DNA of 64,000 nt. Source: Polynucleobacter sp. (GTDB lineage: Bacteria > Pseudomonadota > Gammaproteobacteria > Burkholderiales > Burkholderiaceae_D). Below the pieces are notes generated by a model. The model saw nothing but the letters and a program-made list of their open reading frames with translations, was not told the origin of the DNA and did not search any database. Positions 13,538 through 42,150 of this stretch are shown in pieces. The stretch lies in contig JAIPCX010000011.1 of NCBI GenBank assembly GCA_021737945.1, positions 1 to 64,000 of the forward strand, read 5' to 3'. Every line of letters starts with the position of its first letter. Position 1 is the stretch's first letter. A program made the position numbers and the translations under genes.

Positions 13538-13632
13538 TTAGTGAATTGGTTTAGCTCTTGCTCAATGCTCTGAGAAACTTATTTCAATAAAGTCTCAGGT
13601 CATTGCAGCGAGACGGACCTGCGCCAAAAAAT

Positions 13633-13661
13633 AAAAACCCCTGGTTTCGCCAGGGGTTTTT
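13633..13661. terminator. Bidirectional intrinsic terminator between icd and csp
   Basis: AAAAACCCCTGG and CCAGGGGTTTTT form a perfect stem around a TTTCG loop. It serves the convergent icd (plus) and cold-shock (minus) genes. Confidence 0.92.
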
Positions 13662-13681
13662 GAGAGGGGCCTAATGGGTAA

Positions 13682-13885
13682 TCAGGCGTTTTGGATGTTA
13701 GAAGCTTGCTTGCCTTTGGGGCCTTGCGTTACTTCGAACGATACTTTTTGCCCTTCTTTGAGGGTTTTGAAGCCATTCATCTGAATCGCGGAAAAGTGCG
13801 CGAACAGATCTTCGCCACCATCATCCGGAGTGATAAAACCGAAGCCTTTGGCGTCGTTAAACCACTTTACAGTACCAGTTGCCAT
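13682..13885 (-). CDS. CspA-family cold-shock protein
   Basis: The 67-residue product is a single cold-shock domain, a five-stranded OB fold that binds single-stranded RNA and DNA as a chaperone. RNP1 is KGFGFITP and RNP2 is DLFAHFSAI; the start is [14 protein letters not shown]. The upstream 13886-14044 region is non-coding and could hold the long structured leader typical of cold-shock genes, though no cold box was recognised. The paralogue identity (CspA, CspD or CspE) cannot be decided from the sequence alone. Confidence 0.95.
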
Positions 13886-14219
13886 AAAAAGCGTCTTTCT
13901 TTAAGAACGAATCACACGAGCCCTAAAAGCAAGAAGCCTCGCGTAACGCTGCCCCCTCTTATTATTGCTCCTCCTATATCAATTAGTGCCAACCCGCACA
14001 TTTATTGATCATTTGCATTGTTCGCGTAAAAAATCTAAAAGTCAAGTTAATTGCCAAAAGAACCAGACTTGGCGGAACTTATTGAGAATCCAGGATTGGC
14101 GGGCGTTTTCGAGCTAGCGCCCTGCGCATAGCGAGGAAAGCGCGTAATATCAATGCAAGTGTGTGGATATGACTGGTTTAACCTGTTACGCAGGTAGATG
14201 AAAGCATTAGAATAGAAGC
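13886..14219. other. Divergent intergenic region between csp and clpS
   Basis: These 334 bp contain the leader and promoter of the cold-shock gene on the minus strand and the clpS-clpA promoter on the plus strand. A minus-strand TTGACT hexamer lies at 14039-14044, giving a csp leader of 100 nt or more if used. No other gene or strong repeat was recognised. Confidence 0.5.
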
Positions 14220-39334: not shown

Positions 39335-40795
39335 ATGAAGCTTATTGAACCCAATCTCGTCACTCACAAGGCAGCTCGCGATATCCTGCTTACTCCCAAT
39401 GGACTCGATGAAGGCCATTTGTTGAAAGTACTCGGATCGATATTTACCCACCGCGTTGACTATGCCGATTTGTATTTTCAATTTACGCGTAGCGAGAGTT
39501 GGAGTTTGGAAGAAAGCATCGTAAAAACGGGTAGCTTTTCGATTGATCAAGGTGTGGGTGTTCGAGCTGTTTCAGGTGACCGCACTGCGTTTTCCTATTC
39601 TGACGAAATTTCAGAAACAGCCTTACTTGATGCTGCAGCTGCGACCCGAACGATTGCGCGTCAAGGTGCCGGAAAAATTAAAGTCGCCTCGCGTGTCAAA
39701 CCTGCAGGCGCACGTTCGCTGTATCTGCCTAAAGATCCGTTTGTCTCGCTTGATGCAACCGCTAAAGTCCAGCTGCTGGAAAAAATTGAACGTATCGCAC
39801 GCGCTAAAGATCCGCGCATCGTTCAAGTAATGGCTGGGTTAGCTGGAGAGCAAGACGTTGTTTTAGTCGTGCGTAGCGATGGTGTGATAGCTGCAGATAT
39901 TCGTCCTTTAGTACGTTTGTCATTGACCGTGATCGCTGAGCAGAACGGTCGTCGTGAAGTAGGTACTTTTGGTGGTGGCGGTCGTTATGATTTTTCATAT
40001 TTTTCAGAAGAATTGATTGAAAAATACGCCAGTGAGGCGGTCAATTCCGCATTGGTGAATCTCGAGTCGCGCCCCGCACCTGCAGGCCCAATGACGGTTG
40101 TACTTGGCCCAGGCTGGCCCGGTGTGTTGTTGCATGAAGCGATTGGTCATGGTCTAGAGGGTGATTTCAATCGCAAAGGTTCCAGTGCGTTTTCAGGTCG
40201 TATCGGTGAACGTGTCGCTGCGCGTGGAGTAACGGTAGTCGATGACGGAACGATTAAAGATCGTCGCGGCTCGCTGAATGTGGATGATGAAGGTAACGCT
40301 ACACAATGCACGACCTTGATTGAAGACGGCATTTTGCGCGCCTACATTCAAGACACGCTGAATGCACGCTTAATGAAAATGCCACCAACCGGTAATGGTC
40401 GTCGTGAATCGTATGCGCACCTGCCTATGCCGCGCATGACCAACACCTATATGCTGGCTGGCGACCGTGATCCGGGCGAGATACTCGAGTCCGTTAAAAA
40501 TGGTTTGTATGCTGTGAATTTTGGTGGTGGTCAGGTCGATATTACCAACGGAAAATTTGTTTTCTCAGCCAGCGAAGCGTGGATGATCGAAGATGGCAAG
40601 TTGTCTTATCCAGTTAAAGGCGCGACCCTGATTGGTAACGGTCCGGACGTTCTGAATCGTGTTTCCATGATTGGTAATGACATGCGTCTGGACTCAGGTG
40701 TTGGTACCTGCGGTAAAGATGGTCAGAGCGTCCCAGTCGGCGTGGGTCAGCCTACCTTACGCATTGAAGACTTAACTGTTGGTGGTACCGCCTGA
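39335..40795 (+). CDS. tldD: Metalloprotease TldD
   Basis: The 486-residue subunit of the TldD/TldE heterodimer degrades unfolded peptides inside its cavity. It is known for processing microcin B17 and CcdA in E. coli. The zinc motif is HEAIGH (267-272, in VLLHEAIGHGLEGDFNRKG). FSASEAWMIEDGKLSYPVKGATLIGNGP and the C-terminal TCGKDGQSVPVGVGQP are canonical. The partner tldE (pmbA) is not in this window. A stem-loop overlaps the stop codon. There is a 148-bp gap from the nitrilase gene. Confidence 0.97.
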   Translation: MKLIEPNLVTHKAARDILLTPNGLDEGHLLKVLGSIFTHRVDYADLYFQFTRSESWSLEESIVKTGSFSIDQGVGVRAVSGDRTAFSYSDEISETALLDAAAATRTIARQGAGKIKVASRVKPAGARSLYLPKDPFVSLDATAKVQLLEKIERIARAKDPRIVQVMAGLAGEQDVVLVVRSDGVIAADIRPLVRLSLTVIAEQNGRREVGTFGGGGRYDFSYFSEELIEKYASEAVNSALVNLESRPAPAGPMTVVLGPGWPGVLLHEAIGHGLEGDFNRKGSSAFSGRIGERVAARGVTVVDDGTIKDRRGSLNVDDEGNATQCTTLIEDGILRAYIQDTLNARLMKMPPTGNGRRESYAHLPMPRMTNTYMLAGDRDPGEILESVKNGLYAVNFGGGQVDITNGKFVFSASEAWMIEDGKLSYPVKGATLIGNGPDVLNRVSMIGNDMRLDSGVGTCGKDGQSVPVGVGQPTLRIEDLTVGGTA

Positions 40796-40806
40796 TTTCA
40801 GGCGGT
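40787..40806 (+). terminator. Hairpin overlapping the tldD stop codon
   Basis: ACCGCCTG and CAGGCGGT form an 8-bp stem around ATTT, followed by only TTC. It may end or stabilise the tldD transcript. It is a weak terminator by sequence. Confidence 0.5.
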
Positions 40807-40928
40807 TTCATCCCCGGTGAGATGACCAATGGCGATGAATAAAAGTTACTGATTAAATAACAAGGCTTGCCAAGTACTGGGATTTGTAGCACCATCGCAT
40901 TTCCGGTTGGCCCTGCCGATGAAACAAA

Positions 40929-41000
40929 ATGTTCAAACTGAGTTTTTTCTTTGATTTTTACTTTAGCTACCCCAGCCAGTCGGCGGTGGAGAAGCGGTAA
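40929..41000 (+). CDS. aroG leader peptide, Phe/Tyr-rich (attenuation)
   Basis: The 23-residue frame ATG 40929 to TAA 40998-41000 starts MFKLSFFFDFYFSYPSQS. Residues 2-14 contain six Phe and two Tyr, as in enteric pheL (IPFFFAFFFTFP). It lies between tldD and aroG and ends 33 bp before an intrinsic terminator. The Shine-Dalgarno is poor (GATGAA at best), and an overlapping short frame from ATG 40919 also has two Phe codons. The composition and position argue strongly for a sensor of charged tRNA-Phe and tRNA-Tyr. Stalling at codons 6-14 (40944-40970) would mask 40972-40977 and free 40982-40987. Confidence 0.75.
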   Translation: MFKLSFFFDFYFSYPSQSAVEKR

Positions 41001-41032
41001 GTTCATTGAGAAGCGCAGCGAACCGAATCTTT

Positions 41033-41064
41033 AAAAACCGCCAGGAATGGCGGTTTTTGTTTTT
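41033..41064 (+). terminator. Attenuator terminator upstream of aroG
   Basis: AAAAACCGCCA (41033-41043), loop GGAA, TGGCGGTTTTT (41048-41058), then GTTTTT. The terminator ends 24 bp before the aroG ATG. The leader segment GGCGGT at 40982-40987 can pair with ACCGCC (41037-41042) as antiterminator. A third option pairs 40972-40977 (CCAGCC) with 40982-40986 (GGCGG). The three are mutually exclusive, as attenuation requires. Confidence 0.8.
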
Positions 41065-41088
41065 AAGCGAATTATTCCTGGAGAGACC

Positions 41089-42150
41089 ATGCCACGTACC
41101 GACGACTTAAGGATTAGAGAATTGAAGGAACTGACGCCGCCGTCGCATCTGATCCGGGAACTCCCTTGTTCAGAAAAAATTGCTACCGTCACGGCTAATG
41201 CACGCACGGCGCTGCATCGCATACTGCACGGTCAAGACGATCGTTTGCTGGTGGTGATTGGCCCATGTTCGATTCATGATACCAAAGCGGCGATGGAATA
41301 TGCGCATCGACTGATTGTTGAAAGAGAGCGCTTAAAAGACGATTTAGAAATTGTGATGCGCGTGTATTTTGAAAAACCGCGCACCACCGTGGGTTGGAAA
41401 GGATTGATTAACGATCCTCATCTCGACGGTAGTTTCCAAATTAACGATGGTTTGCGTATTGCACGCGAACTGTTGATGAACATTAATGAATTGGGTTTGC
41501 CAGCAGGTAGTGAATTTCTCGACGTGATCAGCCCGCAATACATTGCCGATTTGATCAGCTGGGGCGCTATCGGTGCTCGTACTACTGAATCACAAGTTCA
41601 TCGAGAACTGGCCTCGGGATTGTCGTGCCCGGTCGGATTCAAAAATGGAACCGATGGCAATATAAAAATCGCTGTCGATGCTATCAAAGCCGCATCGCAG
41701 CCGCATCACTTTTTATCAGTCACCAAAGCGGGTCATTCAGCCATTGTTTCGACGAATGGTAATGAAGATTGTCACATTATTTTGCGTGGTGGTAAGGCGC
41801 CTAATTACGACGCTGCCAGTGTTGATGCGGCCTGTAAAGACATCGCAGCATCCGGTTTAGCTTCGCATCTAATGATCGATGCATCACACGCGAATAGCTC
41901 GAAAAAACCTGAAAACCAAGTGCCCGTATGTGCTGATATCGCAGGACAAGTTGCAAAGGGTGATGATCGTATTATTGGTTTGATGATCGAGTCACATCTA
42001 GTCGGAGGCCGTCAGGATTTAGTGGCTGGTAAAGAACTCACCTACGGTCAATCCATCACCGATGGCTGTATCGATTGGGATAGCAGTATTACTGTCTTAA
42101 ACGGTCTTGCTCAGGCAGTACGAGAACGCAGATTGGCAAAAAGAGATTGA
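41089..42150 (+). CDS. aroG: 3-deoxy-7-phosphoheptulonate (DAHP) synthase
   Basis: This class I, AroFGH-type enzyme condenses phosphoenolpyruvate with erythrose-4-phosphate, the committed step of aromatic amino acid synthesis. The 353-residue form starts at ATG 41089 (MPRTDDLRIRELKEL) behind CTGGAGAG; the upstream in-frame ATG at 41047 lies inside the terminator. Family blocks are VVIGPCSIHD, YFEKPRTTVGWKGLINDP, GAIGARTTESQ, SCPVGFKNGTDG and DASHANSSKKPENQ. Sensitivity to Phe or Tyr cannot be read with certainty. The leader peptide and terminator directly upstream suggest transcription attenuation by Phe/Tyr supply. Confidence 0.97.
   Translation: MPRTDDLRIRELKELTPPSHLIRELPCSEKIATVTANARTALHRILHGQDDRLLVVIGPCSIHDTKAAMEYAHRLIVERERLKDDLEIVMRVYFEKPRTTVGWKGLINDPHLDGSFQINDGLRIARELLMNINELGLPAGSEFLDVISPQYIADLISWGAIGARTTESQVHRELASGLSCPVGFKNGTDGNIKIAVDAIKAASQPHHFLSVTKAGHSAIVSTNGNEDCHIILRGGKAPNYDAASVDAACKDIAASGLASHLMIDASHANSSKKPENQVPVCADIAGQVAKGDDRIIGLMIESHLVGGRQDLVAGKELTYGQSITDGCIDWDSSITVLNGLAQAVRERRLAKRD

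Follow-up and report, generated by a model that had tools for sequence, protein, structure and literature searches.

A probable Phe/Tyr leader peptide attenuator in front of the DAHP synthase gene aroG of a Polynucleobacter strain and its relatives

The window, that is, the whole stretch of 64,000 nucleotides of Polynucleobacter DNA analysed here, contains an aroG gene that was identified by the profiles NCBIfam NF006723 (594.2 bits, against a cut-off of 568) and Pfam DAHP_synth_1. The gene upstream of aroG is tldD (39335-40795), and the leader sits in the gap between the two (Table 1). The initial annotation had described a 23-codon frame whose residues 2-14 include 6 Phe and 2 Tyr, followed by an intrinsic terminator 24 bp in front of aroG, and both were confirmed at their coordinates. 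The aromatic residues of the leader are F2, F6, F7, F8, F10 and F12, together with Y11 and Y14. The terminator (41032-41064) has a stem of 12 pairs at 41032-41059, a loop of 4 and a T tail reaching to 41064, and its end is separated by 24 bp from the ATG of aroG (41089). The three words on which the proposed alternative pairings depend, GGCGGT (40982-40987), ACCGCC (41037-41042) and CCAGCC (40972-40977), were likewise correct in letters and position. The region combines a short frame, clustered codons for end products of the pathway and an intrinsic terminator before the gene.

Table 1. Coordinates of the features of the tldD-aroG gap and of aroG in the window
Feature	Position	Strand	Basis
-35-like element TTGCCA of putative leader promoter	40867-40872	+	recurrence in f1
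-10-like element CACCAT, 17 nt after the -35-like element	40890-40895	+	by-eye comparison, inferred
Leader peptide frame MFKLSFFFDFYFSYPSQSAVEKR, 23 codons, coordinates with the stop	40929-41000	+	translation, conservation in relatives
Control-codon cluster F6-Y14 (Phe, Tyr)	40944-40970	+	translation and stall model
Segment 1 (CCCCAGCC), possible pairing partner of segment 2	40970-40977	+	predicted fold; conserved, not covarying
Segment 2 (GGCGGT), copy of word in terminator 3' arm	40982-40987	+	
Segment 3, terminator 5' arm, contains ACCGCC (41037-41042)	41032-41043	+	
Segment 4, terminator 3' arm (41048-41059) and T tail	41048-41064	+	
aroG, type I 3-deoxy-7-phosphoheptulonate (DAHP) synthase	41089-42150	+	NCBIfam and Pfam profile matches

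The region 40929-41070 folds with -44.8 kcal/mol, compared to -33.7 +/- 3.5 kcal/mol for dinucleotide shuffles (z -3.2), and none of 200 shuffles was as stable; for the longer stretch 40860-41070 the fold was less striking (z -1.74, 6 of 200 shuffles as stable). The pattern GGCGG, 25-55 nt, CCGCC, 3-14 nt, GGCGG-N-TTTT occurs once in the 2.97 Mb genome, at this site, and its backward-read control not at all, the pattern having been composed after the site was seen and fitted to it. Scanning 40700-41200 for terminators gave 1 hit versus 0.7 expected in shuffles. Taken singly, neither the terminator of the window nor the 6-bp helix between segments 2 and 3 would be strong evidence, and it is the comparison with relatives that carries the case. 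Of note, the end of tldD (40787-40806) can form a hairpin of its own over the stop codon, ACCGCCTG-ATTT-CAGGCGGT, in which the ACCGCC/GGCGGT words of the attenuator recur and which is followed by a weak T tail. Elsewhere in the window, the Rfam cspA thermoregulator (RF01766) was matched at 13631-14051 on the minus strand, with 78.6 bits against a gathering score of 78.

For the family of the window (f1), we took the best 80 of 567 AroG relatives from named genomes, of which 79 were used since L001 comes without upstream sequence. The titles are mostly of Oxalobacteraceae genera and some give only a higher group, and all were counted as f1. A leader was called when a frame of 10-45 codons with at least 4 aromatic residues in 9 was followed by a terminator. 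This rule was passed by 80 of the 80 loci in or near f1 (the window and the 79 from the best 80 of 567), including the degraded L077. A clear Phe/Tyr-rich frame was present in 78 of the 79 relatives with upstream sequence, again from the best 80 of 567; in L077, from a metagenome assembly, the leader is degraded or frame-shifted. The leaders were compared by a codon-split listing, as a MAFFT alignment of whole leaders was useless owing to length differences and long alternative starts. Most f1 leader peptides share a core like FYFS(Y/N)S..AVE. GGCGGT is retained in L035, L044, L047 and L069 despite a different reading frame over the word, and because it persists under an altered frame, it is the RNA word and not the peptide that is kept in these four. 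L085, a locus of the same family from the 2.2 Mb genome G101, has lost both the leader and the terminator, and aroG starts about 36 nt after tldD.

At the level of the order, Burkholderiales, matches were obtained in at least 154 of 200 genomes. From these, 109 loci were examined (29 of 30 among the matches listed and 80 hand-picked), and in some cases two of the genes belong to a single genome; L081, which is the window itself, was not counted. The rule was passed by 37 of these 109 further aroG loci, and 72 of 109 were not called as having a leader. In all, leaders were found in 12 families (f1, f3, f4, f9, f10, f12, f19, f22, f29, f31, f43 and f49). L170 has a terminator with the usual words before aroG and no aromatic frame called by the rule, and is perhaps a natural loss of the leader. 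In the class-level set, matches came from 103 of 143 genomes, and 40 hand-picked stretches were scanned in a way slightly different from the order-level rule. Outside the order but within the class, the leader arrangement was found in 1 of 40 loci (L195), the terminator of which was missed by the automatic scan and seen by eye; L231, also outside the order, has an aromatic-rich frame, with no terminator found. The initial annotation had made its proposal depend on a conserved Phe/Tyr-rich frame and alternative pairing in relatives, and leader, terminator and the pairings of segments 2 with 3 (2:3) and 3 with 4 (3:4) do recur in 12 families, with letters changed on both pairing sides in some of these leader-bearing families.

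The 2:3 pairing, the putative antiterminator, was followed in 171 distinct leader-terminator sequences. GGCGG at most 30 nt after the last aromatic codon, together with CCGCC in the terminator 5' arm, was found in 165 of them, with 7-17 nt between the last aromatic codon and GGCGG in 161 sequences; in shuffled stretches GGCGG was found in 4.3%. In 79 of the 165, the bases immediately preceding GGCGG and immediately following CCGCC are able to pair, compared to a mean of 58.2 and a highest value of 72 in 2000 shuffles, and two other flanking positions were without such an excess (77 versus a mean of 69.8, highest 81, and 88 versus a mean of 89.0). Because the shuffles ignore shared ancestry, the flanking-base excess is moderate evidence only. 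More telling are three of the six sequences without the standard words, which have been altered on both sides together and remain complementary: L254 (11 bp, one G-U), L263 (13 bp, two G-U) and L253 (5 bp). The remaining non-standard sequences have 7 bp (L110), a broken helix (L293) and 6 bp (the degraded L077), and the arms of all six were cut by hand.

That the antiterminator has only 6 bp had been named as a weak point, and this is indeed its length in the window, reached by 3.5% of shuffles. In other families, ungapped search gives helices of 5-8 bp, and L254 and L263 reach 11-13 bp. Taken locus by locus, no more than 5% of shuffles equalled the best 2:3 helix in 56 of 66 distinct f1 leaders and in 20 of 33 leaders of other families, and this helix test alone failed (shuffle value >0.05) in 10 of 66 and 13 of 33, respectively (23/99). 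Judged by the word pair in 165 of the 171 distinct sequences and its recurrence in 12 families, a 2:3 pairing that would exclude the terminator pairing 3:4, as initially proposed, is conserved in the relatives, with the proviso that the shuffles take no account of ancestry.

The initial annotation had also stated that the Phe/Tyr codons lie where stalling would free segment 2. We modelled a stalled ribosome on the assumption that 13 nt separate its front edge from the start of the A-site codon. In this model, a ribosome stalled anywhere from F6 to Y14 of the window gives 2:3 pairing with a probability of 0.94-0.96, compared to 0.08 at P15 and 0.00 at S16. In 98 of 99 distinct peptides, the last codon with a 2:3 probability of at least 0.5 lay no more than 2 codons away from the last aromatic one, and in the exception at +4. 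This fit and the short distance are built in to some extent, because only the sequence following the last aromatic codon was searched for segment 2. In f12, f49, f29 and f19, a ribosome on the final aromatic codon gives a modelled 2:3 probability of only 0.00-0.35; this codon would be slightly too close, and therefore earlier codons would have to act in these families. The modelled limit of antitermination thus falls at or near the last aromatic codon, and the control codons are predicted to be positioned such that a stalled ribosome leaves segment 2 free.

The remaining pairing of the proposed switch, between segments 1 and 2 (1:2), stands on weaker ground: it is predicted in the window and conserved in f1, but it is without compensatory changes and not general across families. 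This was examined in the 46 distinct f1 cores in which GGCGGT is preceded by exactly 26 nt. The pairs UCCA:UGGA and CC:GG are intact in 39-46 of these 46, never with both sides changed, and the neighbouring G:C pair in 29 of 46. The short 1:2 hairpin of the window has -9.1 kcal/mol and the whole leader fold -27.4 kcal/mol. By itself, 1:2 is no competitor of 2:3 in folding, and segment 2 is held only when the upstream leader is free as well. In a partition-function model of the untranslated window leader, segment 2 is paired upstream with a probability of 0.82 and with segment 3 with 0.01, and with a ribosome at codon 2 the 2:3 pairing rises to 0.86. In f3, f12 and f31 the untranslated leader favours 2:3 in the model (0.99, 0.66 and 0.82, respectively), so a protector fold would be limited to some lineages. 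Given these three families and the lack of compensatory changes in f1, the 1:2 hairpin is not supported as a general part of the attenuator. It would also be unnecessary for the basic switch, since a ribosome completing the frame would itself cover segment 2.

The frame, the terminator, the complementary words, and their conservation and spacing can be read directly from the sequences, and we consider it very probable on this basis that the region 40929-41064 is a ribosome-mediated transcription attenuator of the leader-peptide class before aroG. The mechanism that we infer, with its promoter, stalling, switch and sensed amino acid, would be as follows. A promoter in the tldD-aroG gap would make a leader RNA of about 160 nt, the 23-codon frame of which would be translated. 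When charged tRNA-Phe, and possibly tRNA-Tyr, is plentiful, the ribosome would reach the stop codon and cover segment 2; segments 3 and 4 would then form the terminator (41032-41064), and aroG would not be transcribed. When the ribosome stalls in the F6-Y14 cluster, its front edge would stay short of segment 2 (GGCGGT), which would be free to pair with the ACCGCC word in segment 3 while segment 4 is still untranscribed, so that no terminator forms and aroG is read. In f1, the whole untranslated leader may in addition fold on itself and hold segment 2, favouring termination.

Which amino acids are sensed can be approached through the codons. Phe sensing by the window leader is likely, and dual sensing of tRNA-Phe and tRNA-Tyr at aroG is what the codon content would suggest. 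It is quite conceivable, at somewhat below even chances, that the same attenuator answers Phe alone and that the Tyr codons are passengers of an FYF-type core. Phe outnumbers Tyr by about 2:1 in f1 leaders (4.9 versus 2.5 per leader), and aroR of C. glutamicum, with Phe-Tyr-Phe, reportedly answers Phe and not Tyr, as described in the part of PMC11802643 that was consulted. However, the last aromatic codon before segment 2 in the window is a Tyr codon, at which a stall is fully effective in the model, and a Tyr codon lies two codons after the Phe of an FS anchor in 52 of the 80 f1 leaders with this anchor.

Trp codons were surveyed as well. They accompany the Phe/Tyr run in 26 of 26 called rows of f22 (22 distinct loci; L310-L313 repeat the leaders of L301, L299, L303 and L292), in 28 of 29 leaders of f49, with FWFS in 22 of the 29, and in 12 of 16 leaders of f31. 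In f1, Trp occurs in 9 of 66 distinct leaders, and there is none in the window leader. Several rows of this survey repeat order-level loci, and the f31 rows exclude L087, L088 and L092, which were covered earlier. Rows not called amounted to 5 of 21 in f31, 1 of 30 in f49 and 4 of 30 in f22, three of the latter with short upstream sequence; the f31 loci L243, L245 and L250 have an aromatic frame, with no terminator found. In several f22 genomes (G022, G152, G397, G399-G401 and G415-G418) there are two adjacent DAHP synthase matches on one strand, and in the four pairs of which the second gene was examined (L310-L313), the leader called lies before the first gene. We lean slightly towards a DAHP synthase attenuator, widespread in the order, that in its ancestral or fullest version would respond to Phe, Tyr and Trp together, with the window leader as one branch. 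The set of sensed amino acids would then have changed by codon gain and loss, because Trp is mostly absent in f1.

Of 84 f1 loci, 73 have TTGCCA at a distance of 60-150 nt before the last aromatic codon, and in the f1 examples compared by eye it is followed after about 17-18 nt by words like TATAGT, CACTAT or CACCAT, so these words probably form a promoter in the tldD-aroG gap. A scan of 40700-41200 with a generic sigma-70 consensus found no site. The poor Shine-Dalgarno sequence, which the initial annotation counted among its weak points, is true of the window and is the rule in f1: a Shine-Dalgarno-like word precedes 2 of 84 f1 leaders (absent in 82/84), compared to 83 of 84 aroG starts. In L035, L044 and L047, the leader ATG is located 6 nt after a TATAGT-type -10-like word, and because of this closeness these leaders may be translated without an untranslated region.

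Codon choice in the leaders is biased. Phe is encoded by TTT in 230 of 325 codons of distinct f1 leaders versus 98 of 502 codons when aroG itself is counted in L002-L080, and in other families in 87 of 150 leader codons versus 7 of 90 in an aroG subset. The FS anchor is present in 80 of 84 f1 leaders, and in all 80 Phe is TTT and Ser is AGC. The f1 core TTTTACTTTAGC (40956-40967 in the window) is near-invariant, silent positions included, for which pairing gives only a partial explanation; the outer pairs are intact in 28 to 42 of the 46 distinct cores. According to theory presented in the part of PMC1183508 that was consulted, sensitivity depends on the choice of synonymous regulatory codons and on a high share of regulatory codons. 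The near-invariant core could also mean that the terminated leader RNA is in addition a trans-acting small RNA. This would fit with the constant TTT and AGC of the FS anchor, seen in all 80 f1 leaders that have it even though aroG prefers TTC, and with the weak pairing of the TTTTACTTT part of the leader in the predicted fold. We consider it improbable, as TTT is enriched in other families with other cores too, and because of this a translational or low-structure reason may suffice for TTT.

Strong conservation of the peptide FYFS(Y/N)S..AVE within f1 would also be expected if the nascent peptide arrests the ribosome upon a free aromatic compound, in the manner of TnaC, rather than by way of uncharged tRNA. 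This we judge to be improbable: the peptide ends differ between families (for example PLAEEG, FWFSVPGG and PKPLAAGR) while aromatic content and RNA words stay, RNA pairing accounts for part of the peptide conservation in f1, and the four f1 leaders that use another frame over GGCGGT still keep the RNA word. Finally, an intergenic terminator that by chance lies beside a random Phe-rich frame can be dismissed, even if U-rich stretches encode Phe by default and almost one terminator is expected in shuffles of 40700-41200, in view of the recurrence across 12 families versus 1 of 40 loci outside the order, and spacing and complementary words beyond shuffles.

An attenuator of this kind has known counterparts. 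The enteric pheL-pheA system has a Phe leader with alternative pairings and a terminator. The corresponding Rfam family, Phe_leader (RF01859), was the best sub-threshold match in a 301-base search, at full length and on the right strand (24.8 bits, E 0.039), and with a gathering score of 55 bits, membership in this family was rejected. Twenty leader loci of other families gave no Rfam match at gathering scores either. Unlike pheL, the window leader precedes aroG and not pheA, and its control codons include Tyr and, in relatives, Trp. The ilvGMEDA and thr attenuators answer several amino acids, the branched-chain ones or Thr/Ile. They resemble the window leader in that one leader has codons for several amino acids of one pathway, but the window leader has aromatic codons instead of branched-chain or Thr/Ile ones. 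Both are among the attenuated E. coli operons named in the part of PMC1183508 consulted.

The closest described system that we found, by analogy, is aroR of C. glutamicum, an aromatic leader peptide that is reported to control a DAHP synthase by ribosome stalling. The aroR study is said to be that of Neshat et al. 2014, and a 2004 survey reportedly covered attenuators in proteobacteria. In the section consulted of the review PMC11802643, on which the likeness rests, aroR is described as a Phe-Tyr-Phe leader before the aroF (DAHP synthase) operon; it differs in that it belongs to an actinobacterium and that only Phe-Tyr-Phe is described. A search of the full-text literature, a corpus that excludes most subscription journals, gave no report of an aromatic leader before aroG in this group, and the portions consulted of PMC2965389, PMC5688073 and PMC12125101, supplementary tables excluded, do not mention a leader of the window type. 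According to the consulted portion of PMC5688073, its Table S3 lists 82 short 5'UTR transcripts of Burkholderia cenocepacia, and this list might include the aroG leader. We regard the window leader as a member of a known attenuator class that is newly described at this place, and possibly as a branch of a three-amino-acid variant.

If true, this would mean that in these bacteria DAHP synthase, which catalyses the first step of the aromatic pathway, is under translation-based control. A Phe/Tyr/Trp leader would be well matched to a gene that serves the synthesis of all three aromatic amino acids, and one such leader would gauge the total aromatic supply for the first common step. The leaders form a natural series that differs in Phe, Tyr and Trp at similar geometry, and this series could be used to test which codons of a mixed leader are sensed.
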